A DNA stretch of 31,448 nucleotides. It comes from a virus. The stretch is taken from positions 1 to 31,448 of the IMG/VR virus record IMGVR_UViG_3300046369_000041. One strand, given 5' to 3'. Each line of letters opens with the position of its first letter. Position 1 is the first letter of the stretch. Below the pieces are notes generated by a model. The model saw only the letters and a list, made by a program, of their open reading frames with translations. It made no database searches and was not told the origin of the DNA. Below, one piece after another: positions 1 through 31,448 of this stretch. Made by a program: the position numbers and the translations under genes.

Positions 1-225
1 ATAATGCGTTATGGCCCGAGAAACATTCTTTTGAGGAACTTGAAGCAATACGCCAAGCGGATAGATATACTTTTAGTGGTCAGTATTTACAAATTCCGTC
101 GCCTCCAGAGGGTGGAGAGTGGAGAAAAGATTGGTTTAATATTATACACAGAGCCGAGTTACCGAGCGATATATCTTTTGAAATGTATATCGATGGCGCT
201 TATACCAAAGACACGAGAAACGATC
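1..225. repeat. Left copy of the 225-bp terminal overlap
   Basis: Positions 1-225 align without gaps to 31224-31448. Seven mismatches lie at 2, 29, 36, 53, 68, 95 and 98; positions 99-225 (127 bases) are identical. The repeat lies inside terL, so the window is a circle opened within that gene. It is best read as an assembly overlap rather than a biological terminal repeat. Confidence 0.93.
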
Positions 226-23218: not shown

Positions 23219-24001
23219 ATGGAAACAAAACAAAAAGAAGTAAAAGCGTTATTTGACACTAACGAAGATTATCATTCATCGCCCGGAATAAGCGCATCAG
23301 GTTTAAAAGCAATATTTAAAAAATCAGTATATCACTTTTTAAATCAAAAGCCTTTTGAATCCTCTGCAATGGCGTTGGGTACTGCGGTACATTGTGCAAT
23401 GCTAGAGCCTGAATTGTACTATAAAGACTTTCACGTAATGCCAAAGATTGACAGACGTACAAAGAGGGGAAAAGAGCAATTTGCAATGGAGCAAGAAAAA
23501 GCGGAAGGTAAATCCTTAGTTGGATTTGATGAACACCAAAAAATAACTGCGATTCTTAACAACTTTAGAAATCACGATTTAGCACAAAAATATTGCAAAG
23601 GCGAAATTGAATTGTCGCATTATTTAGAACACGAGGGTTTGCAAGTTAGAGTAAGGCCTGACTGTTTAAATAGGGTTGAGAACTTTATTAGTGATGTTAA
23701 AACGTGCCAAGATAATGCTCCAATGGCGTTTAAAAGAGACGTTTACAAATATGGTTATCACTTACAATGTGCATTTTATTCTGATATGTTAGGAATACCG
23801 GCTGAAAATTTTAGATTTATAGCGGTTGAAACTAACTATCCTTTTTCGGTAGAGGTTTACGGATTAAGTGAGGAAATGATTGAGCAAGGCCGTAGAGGTT
23901 GGAAGAGAGCGTTTGGCGATTGGAAAATATATAAGCAAACCGGGATAGTTTCAGGATATAACTGGAATGAATTTTCTGAGGATGGAAGTTTAATTTTATA
24001 A
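23219..24001 (+). CDS. RecE-like PD-(D/E)XK exonuclease
   Basis: This is predicted to chew dsDNA ends to give single strands for the annealase. The 260-residue protein fits phage PDDEXK exonucleases (DUF3799/RecE C-terminal type). Features are PGISASGLKAIFKKSVYHFL near the N-terminus, H58 (GTAVHCAMLEPE), D148 (RVRPDCLNRV), D159-x-K161 (ISDVKTCQDN) and a helical YGYHLQCAFYSDML. ATG 23219 is preferred to 23198, because the latter lies inside the preceding peptide gene and adds residues before the usual family start. Confidence 0.87.
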   Translation: METKQKEVKALFDTNEDYHSSPGISASGLKAIFKKSVYHFLNQKPFESSAMALGTAVHCAMLEPELYYKDFHVMPKIDRRTKRGKEQFAMEQEKAEGKSLVGFDEHQKITAILNNFRNHDLAQKYCKGEIELSHYLEHEGLQVRVRPDCLNRVENFISDVKTCQDNAPMAFKRDVYKYGYHLQCAFYSDMLGIPAENFRFIAVETNYPFSVEVYGLSEEMIEQGRRGWKRAFGDWKIYKQTGIVSGYNWNEFSEDGSLIL

Positions 24002-24009
24002 AATATTAT

Positions 24010-24489
24010 ATGTTAGAAAATTTAGAATTATTAAGAAACTTAATTATAAGAAATTTAAAGTTTGATCCTACTTCAAAAAGTAGAATTAGAGATGTTGTCG
24101 ATGTTAAAAAAATATTTTGTTTGATTGCTTTTTATGAAGTTAAAGGGTTTCGATATGCAAAGGTCGGTAGTTTTTTGGGTATGAATCACGCAACAGTTGT
24201 GCATCACGTTAGAACGGCAAAAGACTTATTGAGGTATGATCCACACTTCAAAGAAATGTATAGAAGAATCGAGGCTATGTTTTTTATGGCGAATCAAGAG
24301 GTTGTAATTTCTGATATTGAAAGTGAAATGAATATTCTTTTAATAAAGTTAAAAAGACTTAGACAAAAAAGGAACGATTATTTAGATAAAAGAGAAAAAC
24401 AAAAGTTATTGGCTGAATTTGAAGCTGATGATATAATTACAACTAAAACATTAACAGAAAATAAAAAACCTATACTATGGACGAATTAG
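24010..24489 (+). CDS. DnaA domain IV-like DNA-binding protein
   Basis: This 159-residue protein contains a helix-turn-helix like the DNA-binding domain of bacterial DnaA: FRYAKVGSFLGMNHATVVHH near residues 48-67, comparable to the DnaA signature around G-x-D-H-T-T-V. It has no AAA+ ATPase domain. The C-terminal part (ESEMNILLIKLKRLRQKRND) is a basic coiled coil. It may bind DnaA boxes to steer or block the host initiator, or act at the phage origin about 1.1 kb downstream. Confidence 0.78.
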   Translation: MLENLELLRNLIIRNLKFDPTSKSRIRDVVDVKKIFCLIAFYEVKGFRYAKVGSFLGMNHATVVHHVRTAKDLLRYDPHFKEMYRRIEAMFFMANQEVVISDIESEMNILLIKLKRLRQKRNDYLDKREKQKLLAEFEADDIITTKTLTENKKPILWTN

Positions 24490-25258: not shown

Positions 25259-26149
25259 ATGGAAAACAAGAAAAACTATTATGCCGTTATACCGGCAGAG
25301 GTACGATATTCTAAAAATTTAAAGGCTAACGAGAAATTAATGTATGGCGAACTAACCGCATTGGCAAATGAAAAAGGCTATTGTTACGCCTCTAATGAGT
25401 ATTTTTCACAACTTTATAACGTATCAAAATCTACTGTATCAAGATGGATTTCTAACTTAGAAACAAACAAATTTTTAAAATTAAAAATGATTTATGAAAA
25501 AGGTACAAAGAACATAAAAGAGAGAAGAATTTACATTTCTACCCTATTGACGAAAAGCGCAATACCTATTGACGAAAAGATCAATACCCCTATTGACGAA
25601 AAGCGCAAGGTTATATATAAATATAATAATATTAATAATATAAAAAAGAATAATGTACGAAATGTAAAAGCGCCTATATTTACTGAGATTACTGAAAAGG
25701 CGTTTCCACATTTCATAAGCCTTTTTCCTTTAAATTATAGACCGAAAACAAAAGCACAAAAAAACAAATGGTTGGAATGCTTAGATAAAATTCAGCGCAT
25801 TGATAAATACAATTTACGAGATGTTTACAACGTGGCAAAAGATTTAAGAGATGACCAATTTTGGGCGAAAAACTTTTTAAGTATTCTTAAATTAAGAAAC
25901 ACAGATAAAAACGGCATAAAGTACATTGATAGGTTTATGGATGATTACCGCTCTAAAACCAAACCAATAGGCTATAATAAAATAAAAGGCATTATTGAGT
26001 ATTATATTTATACCTCTCCGGCAACTGGTCAAAAAGAATTAGGAGCAAAAACAAAAGGCGGAGAGTTATATGAATTTAATATAAAACAAACATTGCAAAC
26101 AAAAGAATTTCAAGATTTAAAAAAATACGTTCAAGATGGCAACAAGTAA
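25259..26149 (+). CDS. Replication initiator-like protein (lambda O / replisome organiser type)
   Basis: This 296-residue protein has an N-terminal winged HTH (AVIPAEVRYSKNLKANEKLM, then YFSQLYNVSKSTVSRWISNL) like HTH_36 phage replication proteins. A low-complexity middle encoded by iterons and A/T-rich DNA follows (residues about 95-135). The C-terminal region (FWAKNFLSILKLRNTDKNGI, RFMDDYRSKT) resembles the end of replisome-organiser proteins. It should bind iterons inside its own gene and recruit the phage primase-helicase, encoded downstream. It overlaps the next gene by 14 bases. Confidence 0.8.
   Translation: MENKKNYYAVIPAEVRYSKNLKANEKLMYGELTALANEKGYCYASNEYFSQLYNVSKSTVSRWISNLETNKFLKLKMIYEKGTKNIKERRIYISTLLTKSAIPIDEKINTPIDEKRKVIYKYNNINNIKKNNVRNVKAPIFTEITEKAFPHFISLFPLNYRPKTKAQKNKWLECLDKIQRIDKYNLRDVYNVAKDLRDDQFWAKNFLSILKLRNTDKNGIKYIDRFMDDYRSKTKPIGYNKIKGIIEYYIYTSPATGQKELGAKTKGGELYEFNIKQTLQTKEFQDLKKYVQDGNK
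25543..25606 (+). repeat. Three iterons inside the initiator gene
   Basis: CCTATTGACGAAAAG starts at 25543, 25565 and 25589. Copies 1 and 3 share 20 identical bases (extension CGCAA) and copy 2 diverges after AAAAG. Spacing is 22 and 24 bases, so copy 1 is read in a different frame from copies 2 and 3. Close to two helical turns apart, they look like initiator-binding sites. Confidence 0.85.
25609..25655 (+). other. A/T-rich unwinding region, putative replication origin
   Basis: From the last iteron for about 45 bases the sequence is almost purely A and T (TTATATATAAATATAATAAT onward), with two G near the end. Iterons followed directly by such a stretch inside the initiator gene is the layout of the lambda origin in gene O. 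Confidence 0.7.
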
Positions 26150-27384: not shown

Positions 27385-29061
27385 ATGAAAACATTTAAAG
27401 ACTTCAATATTGATGTCGGCAATAAAACGACCGGCAAAATTAAAACACAATGCCCAAAGTGTAGCCATACAAGAAAAAACAAACGTGATAAATGTTTGTC
27501 AGTAGACTTAGACAAAGGTTTATGGAATTGCCACAACTGCGGGTTTGGAGGAACTACAAAATTTGAGAAAAAGCAAGAATACATTGTACCTCAAAAAATA
27601 AAACTAAATATTTCGGAGCCAGTTATTGAATGGTTTAAAGGTAGAGGCATCACAGAGCCAACTTTAAAACATTGGAAAGTAGGGCAATCAATGGAGTATT
27701 TTCCGCAAGTAAACGCAAAGCGTAGGGCCGTAAACTTTAACTACTACCGAGAGAATGAACTTGTAAACGTAAAATATAGAGATTCGCAGAAAAACTTCAA
27801 AATGGTTTCAGGCGCTGAACTTATATTTTATGGCCTTGACAATATAAAAGAAATGGACAAAATTTATATTGTTGAGGGAGAAATGGATGCTTTAACCTTA
27901 CACGAGGCGGGTATTTATTCGGTTTGTTCTGTTCCAAATGGTGCGTCTAAAGGAAGCCAAAGACTAGAATATTTGGACAACTGTTGGCAATACTTTAAAG
28001 ACAAAAAAGAAATAATACTTTGCACAGATAACGACAATCCGGGAATTGAACTCAGAAAAGAACTTGCAAGAAGGTTTGGCGCATATCGTTGCAAATACGT
28101 TGATTTTGGCGATTATAACGATGCTAACGAGATTTTAATATCTAAGGGAGCAGAAACATTAAGGAATGTAATAAAAGGCGCTAAAAACTTCCCTTTAGAG
28201 GGCGTTTTAAATGTTGATGATATTTGGCAATCGGTTTTAAATTATAATGAGGCGGGAGTTAAAAACTATTCAATAGGTTTGCCTAACTCAGATACATATT
28301 TTAAAATGTCTTTAGGAGAATGGTCAGTTGTTACTGGAATACCAAATTCGGGAAAATCCGATGTTATGGATCAAATATTTTGCAACCTAGCAACTTCATA
28401 CGATATGAGATGCGCAATCTTTGCACCTGAATCATTCCCATACGAAGGCCATATAAAAAGAATTGCGAATAAATTAAACGAAACTAATTGCGATAGTAAC
28501 CAACTAAATAACACAAAAGATTTTATTGAAGACCATTTTTATTGGGTTAAAATAGATTTAGAAAATCTAACTTTAAAAGCAATATTAAACCATTTTAAAG
28601 AGTTAGTATTTCAAAAAGGAATAAATGTTTGTGTGATTGACCCTTGGAATATGCTCGACCATTCAGCACAAAGAGACCATTCTTATATCGGAAAAGTATT
28701 ATCTGAAATTACACAATTTTGTCAGCAAACAAATACACATTTGTTTTTAGTGGCGCATCCTAGAAAAATAGAAAGCGAAAACGGAAACTATAAAAAACCA
28801 ACTTTGTATGATATAAGTGGCTCTGCTGACTTTTTTAACAAGGCTTACAACGGATTAATAGTTTATAGATGTATTGGACAACGTACTAAATTTGATTCTG
28901 ATATTGTGAAAATGTATGTAGAAAAAGTAAAACGAAAAGAAAACGGACAATTAGGAGATTTTGATATTGCTCCTGATTTTAAAAACGGCGGTGTTTATAG
29001 GGATGTCGATTTAAATACAAAAAGGTTTGAAGTTGTAACCGATGATAATGTACCATTTTAG
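27385..29061 (+). CDS. Primase-helicase, T7 gp4/Twinkle-like
   Basis: This 558-residue bifunctional replication enzyme primes and unwinds DNA. A zinc-binding domain has C23-x2-C26 and C49-x2-C52 (TQCPKCSHTR, LWNCHNCGFGG). The Toprim domain has E164 (IYIVEGEMDALTL) and D215-x-D217 (LCTDNDNPGIEL). The DnaB-like helicase core has Walker A at 318-325 (GIPNSGKS), Walker B at D419 (VCVIDPWNML) and VAHPRK. The last residues are TDDNVPF, much like the C-terminal tip of SSB. It starts behind a promoter-like element and heads the last early segment. Confidence 0.94.
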   Translation: MKTFKDFNIDVGNKTTGKIKTQCPKCSHTRKNKRDKCLSVDLDKGLWNCHNCGFGGTTKFEKKQEYIVPQKIKLNISEPVIEWFKGRGITEPTLKHWKVGQSMEYFPQVNAKRRAVNFNYYRENELVNVKYRDSQKNFKMVSGAELIFYGLDNIKEMDKIYIVEGEMDALTLHEAGIYSVCSVPNGASKGSQRLEYLDNCWQYFKDKKEIILCTDNDNPGIELRKELARRFGAYRCKYVDFGDYNDANEILISKGAETLRNVIKGAKNFPLEGVLNVDDIWQSVLNYNEAGVKNYSIGLPNSDTYFKMSLGEWSVVTGIPNSGKSDVMDQIFCNLATSYDMRCAIFAPESFPYEGHIKRIANKLNETNCDSNQLNNTKDFIEDHFYWVKIDLENLTLKAILNHFKELVFQKGINVCVIDPWNMLDHSAQRDHSYIGKVLSEITQFCQQTNTHLFLVAHPRKIESENGNYKKPTLYDISGSADFFNKAYNGLIVYRCIGQRTKFDSDIVKMYVEKVKRKENGQLGDFDIAPDFKNGGVYRDVDLNTKRFEVVTDDNVPF

Positions 29062-30534: not shown

Positions 30535-31448
30535 CGAAATAATAAAGCAAAAATGTGAGGATTCGCTTTTGTTTTTTACTCGTTATATTTTCAAAGAAAA
30601 CACCGGAAATAAATTCGAGGCCGCAGAGTTTCATAGAACATTAGCCAACACATTACACAAAGTACATAACGGCGAAATTAAGCGCCTTATAATTAATATA
30701 CCTCCACGATACGGAAAAACTGAAATAGCCGTTAAAATGTTTATCGCCTGGACACTTGCTAAAAATCCTATGGCAAAGTTTATTCATTTATCTTATTCTG
30801 ATTCGTTGGCGCTAGATAATAGTTCAATGACAAAAGAATATATTAATTCAGACGCCTACCAAAGCATTTGGAATCTACAACTTAAAAAGGATTCACAATC
30901 ACAAAAGAAATGGTACACAACGCAAGGCGGTGGAGTTTATGCAACATCTTCAGGGGGTGCAATTACCGGGTTTGGTGCCGGTACCGGTGGAGCAATTATA
31001 ATTGATGATCCTTTAAAACCTGATGACGCATTATCAGATGTTAGGCGGTCGTTTATAAACAATCGATACAATACAACTATTCGTTCAAGGGTTAATGACA
31101 GAGATGTTCCTATTATCGTAATTATGCAGAGGCTACACGAGGAAGATTTGAGCGGTTATTTATTAGACGGCGGAAGTGGAGAGAAATGGCATCACTTAAA
31201 GTTAGCAGCATTGGATGACGATAACAATGCGTTATGGCCCGAGAAACATTCATTTGAAGAACTTGAAGCAATACGTCAAGCGGATAGATACACTTTTAGT
31301 GGTCAGTATTTACAAATCCCTTCGCCTCCAGAGGGTGGAGAGTGGAGAAAAGATTGGTTTAATATTATACACAGAGCCGAGTTACCGAGCGATATATCTT
31401 TTGAAATGTATATCGATGGCGCTTATACCAAAGACACGAGAAACGATC
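30521..31448 (+). CDS. terL: Large terminase subunit, N-terminal part (ATPase domain)
   Basis: This is the ATPase half of the DNA-packaging motor; it runs off the window and continues at 3-656. Residues 1-309 are visible here. Walker A is PPRYGKTE at 61-68, Walker B with catalytic acids is AIIIDDP at 158-164, and the coupling motif region is IVIMQRLHEEDLSG near 199-212. SSGGAITGFGAGTGG at 143-157 precedes Walker B, as in many phage terminases. ATG 30521 lies inside terS (14-base overlap). The combined protein of 452 residues is normal length. Confidence 0.94.
   Translation, partial: MKNINEIIKQKCEDSLLFFTRYIFKENTGNKFEAAEFHRTLANTLHKVHNGEIKRLIINIPPRYGKTEIAVKMFIAWTLAKNPMAKFIHLSYSDSLALDNSSMTKEYINSDAYQSIWNLQLKKDSQSQKKWYTTQGGGVYATSSGGAITGFGAGTGGAIIIDDPLKPDDALSDVRRSFINNRYNTTIRSRVNDRDVPIIVIMQRLHEEDLSGYLLDGGSGEKWHHLKLAALDDDNNALWPEKHSFEELEAIRQADRYTFSGQYLQIPSPPEGGEWRKDWFNIIHRAELPSDISFEMYIDGAYTKDTRND
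31224..31448. repeat. Right copy of the 225-bp terminal overlap
   Basis: This matches positions 1-225 with seven mismatches, all in its first 98 bases; the final 127 bases are identical. See the left copy. The unit length of the circle is therefore 31,223 bp. Confidence 0.93.

Follow-up and report, generated by a model that had tools for sequence, protein, structure and literature searches.

A probable replication origin within the HTH_36 initiator gene of a Bacteroidota-type phage

Introduction

The O protein of bacteriophage lambda binds iterons that lie within its own gene and melts a neighboring A/T-rich stretch of 40 bp (PMC5043065; PMC7466680). The lambda iterons are inverted repeats that are bound by O dimers (PMC5043065). 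In the plasmid pSK41, whose initiator is of the RepA_N type, a winged-helix N-terminal domain binds repeats located centrally in the rep gene, and the segment of the protein that the origin encodes is merely a linker, dispensable as protein (PMC5703833). The plasmid pPR9 has a hybrid initiator, in which a PF13730 N-terminal domain and an origin were swapped in, as a block of about 500 bp, for the pSK41 block; a pPR9 mini-replicon is capable of autonomous replication and can coexist with pSK41 as a compatible plasmid (PMC5703833).

Here we analyze a stretch of viral DNA of 31,448 nucleotides (the window). We propose that the region at 25540-25660 is a phage replication origin that is embedded in the gene for its own initiator. 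Given the sequence comparisons, a predicted structure, and the analogy to known systems, we consider this very likely.

The initiator gene and its setting

The ends of the window (1-225 and 31224-31448) overlap by 225 bp, with 218 of 225 positions identical. Because of this overlap, even if it is slightly mismatched, the window looks like a near-complete and circularly closing phage genome. The phage is of a marine, Flavobacteriaceae type. It probably infects a member of the Flavobacteriaceae, as a MAG contig from this family carries a 97% identical gene and the start codons lack obvious Shine-Dalgarno sequences. The features of the initiator gene, and the helicase that it may recruit, are:

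25259-26149, plus strand: replication initiator gene, 296 amino acids (PF13730 HTH_36, E = 1.7e-13; PHROG replication initiation families 19658, 270, and 428)
25316-25477, plus strand: HTH_36 domain (Pfam), residues 20-73; the predicted winged helix extends to about residue 92
25427-25465, plus strand: predicted recognition helix, residues 57-69, a helix in the AlphaFold model; residues 58, 59, and 62 covary with iteron bases 5 and 7
25538-25672, plus strand: low-confidence linker region, residues 94-138 (pLDDT under 50), which coincides with the iterons and the A/T tract
25685-26134, plus strand: C-terminal domain, about residues 143-292, probably the helicase-recruiting part (weak similarity to DnaD-like, replisome organizer, and lambda-O C-terminal families)
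27385-29061, plus strand: Toprim and DnaB-like primase-helicase, likely the recruited helicase (PHROG_239, E = 1.7e-89; Toprim_2, E = 1.2e-12; DnaB_C, E = 1.8e-4)

The first-pass annotation of this DNA described the gene as initiator-like, which is borne out by its matches to HTH_36 (50.6 bits, versus a cutoff of 25) and to the PHROG families. Its only O-like matches are remote ones, to PHROGs 391 and 678, through the helix-turn-helix region. The AlphaFold model (mean pLDDT of 70.5, pTM of 0.37) has an N-terminal winged helix, a linker, and a C-terminal domain. The winged helix is modeled with helices at residues 46-53 and 57-69 and strands at 74-79 and 86-92, and the linker, which is encoded by the repeats, is predicted to be disordered. 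A sequence search of the PDB with the initiator gave no match. By fold (Foldseek), the three best matches in the PDB are the N-terminal domains of RepA_N initiators (4pt7, 5kbj, and 4pql), with a Rep-DNA complex among them; these are modest matches, with E of about 0.01 and TM to target of 0.44-0.48.

The neighbors of the initiator encode a Rad52/Erf-type annealing protein, an exonuclease VIII-like protein, a VRR nuclease, a methylase, and the primase-helicase. Downstream, the order of genes is an unmatched 136-amino-acid ORF, a small ORF, the N6_N4 methylase, and the primase-helicase. No lambda P homolog was recognized in the scan of these genes, which covered the 136-amino-acid ORF, the methylase, and the primase-helicase. 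Upstream of the initiator, 24010-24489 encodes a 159-amino-acid protein in which a helix-turn-helix weakly resembles DnaA domain IV (Bac_DnaA_C at E = 2.5e-4, a match that does not reach the curated cutoff).

Repeats and an A/T-rich tract within the initiator gene

The repeat CCTATTGACGAAAAG is present in three exact copies, at spacings of 22 and 24, just upstream of the least stable 30- to 50-bp duplex in the window:

25543-25557, plus strand: iteron 1, exact repeat copy, read as LLTKS
25565-25579, plus strand: iteron 2, exact repeat copy in a shifted frame, read as PIDEK
25589-25603, plus strand: iteron 3, exact repeat copy, read as PIDEK
25608-25657, no strand assigned: A/T-rich probable DNA unwinding element, least stable 30-, 40-, and 50-bp duplex of the window

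The three copies and their spacing are as first annotated. The repeats had been placed in the middle of the gene, but they occupy codons 95-115 of 296, roughly one third of the distance along it. They have the format TAT-TGACG-AAAA and are asymmetric direct repeats: the score for an internal dyad was not above that of shuffled sequences (62% of which were as good). No other 12- to 15-mer occurs three times inside 80 bp anywhere in the window, and we found no additional copies of CCTATTGACGAAAAG across the whole window at 0 or 1 mismatch. The region at 25530-25660 also gives a weak signal for RNA structure (z = -2.2; 4 of 200 shuffles were equally stable), but we set that reading aside because the iteron copies are direct repeats.

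In the protein, copy 1 is part of LLTKSA, while copies 2 and 3 give PIDEKI and PIDEKR. Since copy 1 is in another frame than copies 2 and 3, the repetition is not explained by the protein, which argues for selection on the DNA, as the first-pass annotation had reasoned. Consistent with this, when residues 81-140 were recoded with synonymous codons, none of 5,000 sequences had a triple repeat of more than 8 bases, as compared to the 15 that are observed. If selection acted on the peptide PIDEK instead, with the DNA repeat being secondary, then copies 2 and 3, which are in frame with each other, would be accounted for, but copy 1 would not be. Furthermore, the segment is predicted to be disordered, and most arrays in related genes cross frames (see below), so we give this idea almost no credence.

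The A/T-rich stretch that had been noted after the repeats is directly 3' of them and includes 37 uninterrupted A/T bases (25611-25647); no other pure A/T run in the window is as long. At lengths of 30, 40, and 50 bp, the least stable duplexes in the entire 31 kb all fall within 25608-25657. At 60 and 80 bp, other sites in the window equal or exceed it in instability. One such site, at about 23989-24048, is equally unstable at 60 bp and is beside the gene at 24010 that weakly matches Bac_DnaA_C. If replication began there or at another A/T-rich site, the repeats would have some other role. However, when we scanned the other A/T-rich sites in the window for repeat arrays, neither this site nor any other had a comparable one, and the DnaA-box-like sites in the window (six matches) are at the number expected by chance, so we think that an origin at another A/T-rich site is quite improbable. 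The GC skew, which had been proposed as a check, does not mark an origin anywhere: the major genes are all on one strand and the cumulative curve climbs almost steadily through the window.

In the proposed mechanism, the N-terminal winged helix (HTH_36) would bind the three direct repeats, whose spacings of 22 and 24 bp are roughly two helical turns. Several assembled copies of the initiator would then strain and melt the adjoining A/T tract, and the C-terminal domain would recruit the primase-helicase of the phage (gene at 27385). The peptide that joins the two domains would be a tolerant linker, which would leave the coding DNA free to carry sites in any frame. What we observe directly are the repeats, their shift of frame, the instability, the conservation and covariation (see below), and the domain assignments; binding by the initiator, melting, recruitment of the helicase, and the activity of the origin itself are inferred.

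Arrays in related initiators

Among 133 distinct genes that we scanned, 101 have at least 3 tandem copies of a repeat and beat all 20 codon shuffles. We then considered 71 dereplicated relatives with arrays. The spacings in these arrays range from 20 to 25, with 22, 23, and 24 being dominant, and 60 of the 71 arrays span more than one frame (47 are in two frames and 13 are in all three). The 3-copy threshold was passed by 65 of the 71 relatives; for other ORFs at these loci, the count was just 1 of 132. Because the 71 were selected for having arrays, the first of these counts does not estimate how frequent arrays are in the family. When we scanned 60 new genes, 50 had arrays, 45 had at least 3 copies, and 44 had copies in more than one frame, while about 10 had no clear array by the finder that we used. 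The arrays of the type found in L019, L023, and L079 are degenerate. Overall, arrays recur across bacterial phyla with unrelated repeat sequences.

The least stable 40-mer of the locus is 3' rather than 5' of the array at 69 of the 71 loci, and it is above the 99th percentile of the locus in 64 of them (versus 7% by chance). An extreme unstable stretch on a consistent side of the array is what we would expect for an origin, but not if the repeats were an intragenic operator by which the protein represses its own or downstream transcription while replication starts elsewhere. An operator would fit with the predicted DNA-binding domain, which is of a kind that is also found in repressors, and binding sites alone could explain why the iterons covary with the recognition helix (see below). 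On the other hand, the gene is within a replication module and matches families of initiators, and in pPR9 a PF13730 N-terminal domain together with an origin segment supports replication (PMC5703833). Overall, we consider an operator to be unlikely, but it is the alternative to which we give the most weight.

Several relatives are unusual. L037:2459-3382 and L123 have the C-terminal domain of the window's initiator, but their N-terminal domains have diverged. The array of L037 is a different, A/T-rich one, and L123 shows none, so the origin may be elsewhere in initiators of this type. In L096:2462-3400, two of the three iterons are near-perfect palindromes (CGGACAAAATTGTCC) and the array is in all three frames; the palindromes suggest that some members have dimer-type sites. 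The combination of the helix-turn-helix and an iteron array is also present on the L180 and L192 contigs, which are from a Thermoplasmatales archaeon bin and a Burkholderia genome. These two occurrences could be due to mis-binning or to an unusually wide spread.

Constraint on the iterons and a natural chimera

In the window's close group, synonymous variation is seen in 2 of 15 iteron codons, as compared to 103 of 233 codons elsewhere in the gene. In a sister group, the corresponding numbers are 0 of 14 and 71 of 231. Also, all three copies in the sister group have GAA instead of GAC, a change that replaces T with K where it is read in one frame and D with E where it is read in the other. The positions and the spacing of the iterons are kept in genes down to about 65% identity.

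These observations bear on whether the repeats might be a recent tandem duplication or the result of slippage, without any function. Copies 1 and 3 are 100% identical across an extended 21-mer, as might be expected from a duplication, but that origin for the repeats would not account for their conserved positions and spacing, for the coordinated change of a base in all of the copies, for the depletion of synonymous changes, or for the recurrence of arrays with unrelated sequences in various phyla. We view a functionless duplication as highly unlikely, and the comparative tests favor a function for the repeats at the level of DNA.

L019 and L013 are near-identical over codons 1-30 and again downstream of iteron 3. 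Their identity falls to about 60% in two places, the recognition helix and the iterons, and is intermediate in between. From this pattern, L019 is a natural chimera that has changed mainly in its recognition helix and its iterons. It retains the iteron positions and the 22/24 spacing while the sequence of the iterons differs.

The recognition helix and the center of the iteron

The format TAT-NNNNN-AAAA, whose center is variable, is common to many of the relatives. (About a quarter to a third of the arrays do not follow the TAT register, and the tests below exclude them.) The first-pass annotation had suggested looking for iterons that changed in relatives whose helix-turn-helix had also changed. 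Besides the chimera L019, we found such covariation across the relatives: controlling for the rest of the N-terminal domain, the distance between centers tracks the distance between recognition helices, with a partial correlation of 0.25 (n = 78), or 0.23 among 47 dereplicated genes, although some phylogenetic signal remains, as the iterons' partial correlation with the rest of the domain is likewise positive. None of 2,000 permutations reached the helix-center correlation.

We also predicted the centers of held-out genes from genes whose domain, outside of the helix, differs by 25% or more. For 29 genes with a near-matching helix, the helix predicted 3.81 of the 5 center bases, while the rest of the domain predicted 2.70 and the random expectation was 2.05; many of these genes are in one T/V-S-K group, so the number of independent cases is below 29. 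With poorer matches to the helix, the prediction drops to 2.83 bases (6 genes) and then to 1.83 bases (3 genes).

The strongest or near-strongest associations between residues and bases are T59 with base 7, R62 with base 7, and S58 with base 5, all of which are in the recognition helix. Some columns outside of the helix also score highly, presumably because of shared descent. For residues 58-59-62, E-T-R is found with TGAC, T-S-K mostly with TGAA, V-S-K with TAAA, and V-T-R with TAAC. S-T-R is found with TGAC and also with ACGC or ATGC, so residues other than these three must matter.

It may be, and we think the chances are about even, that HTH_36 initiators share the format TAT-NNNNN-AAAA and that a few helix residues (58 for base 5; 59 and 62 for base 7) largely determine the variable bases. 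We found no description of the shared format or of the link to helix residues in the open-access papers that we searched; subscription papers on the origins of lactococcal and Lactobacillus phages were outside the scope of this search. The interest of this locus is mainly in this apparent specificity code, with repeats that shift along with the DNA-reading helix across several bacterial phyla. If the code is real and roughly additive, then the sequence of the initiator alone could reveal the origin and the incompatibility group for many uncultured phages. In any case, the paired changes in protein and DNA are ready material for studying how winged-helix initiators choose their sites. More broadly, this analysis points to a probable origin in a phage of the Bacteroidota type and offers a rule by which many others could be found from their sequences.

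Comparison with known systems

The locus had been called lambda-like, and for the layout and probably the mechanism this holds. As in gene O of lambda, the iterons are between a DNA-binding N-terminal domain and a helicase-side C-terminal domain, and the A/T melting tract is 3' of them. The four iterons of lambda also fall in three frames (0, 2, 2, 1), so the crossing of frames is not in itself new. The DNA-binding domain and the iteron dyad do not fit the description. The window's domain is HTH_36 and not Phage_rep_O: the window's protein has no match to Phage_rep_O (PF04492) at E of 0.01, whereas lambda O does match this family. The window's iterons are asymmetric direct repeats without a dyad, while the same test (which is crude and ungapped) was significant for lambda iterons 1 and 3, but not for 2 and 4. 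Instead of a recognizable P, the window has a phage primase-helicase. The similarity of the C-terminal domain to lambda O is weak (BLASTP, 39% identity over 33 amino acids, E = 8e-4; hhalign, E = 0.0017 with a probability of 15%), as are its profile matches to PHROGs 2357 (E = 5e-4) and 277 (E = 0.008).

The closest precedents are the RepA_N plasmids and pPR9. RepA_N initiators are like the window's in having repeats within the gene, and they provide its best, though modest, fold matches in the PDB. However, the window's protein has no Pfam match to RepA_N (PF06970) at E of 0.01, and we saw no similarity between its C-terminal domain and RepA_N proteins. The plasmid pPR9 shares the N-terminal domain family PF13730 with the window and differs in being a staphylococcal plasmid with the C-terminal domain of pSK41 (PMC5703833). 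Our searches of plasmids did not recognize pPR9 itself. For a match on an S. epidermidis plasmid (H67), the order of the replication genes is phage-type, not pSK41-type.

Phages with HTH_36 initiators, such as Staphylococcus phage 77, Fusobacterium phage Funu2, and Cellulophaga phage phi39:1, have a homologous N-terminal domain, an iteron array, and an A/T tract. In the HTH_36 phages of Firmicutes, Fusobacterium, and Cellulophaga, the C-terminal domains differ from the window's (it is Phg_2220_C in phage 77) and the iteron centers usually differ as well. The N-terminal domain, the iterons, and the A/T tract appear with different C-terminal domains as an exchangeable module, so phages and plasmids could switch their replication specificity by a single recombination step. 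The window has the sequence features of an intragenic HTH_36 origin: the HTH_36 N-terminal domain, direct repeats in the linker that are 20-25 bp apart and usually cross frames, and a weak A/T tract on the 3' side. Judging by these sequence features, it belongs with the HTH_36 initiators that have intragenic origins, which is an arrangement that was already known, and not, by its DNA-binding domain, with the lambda O family.
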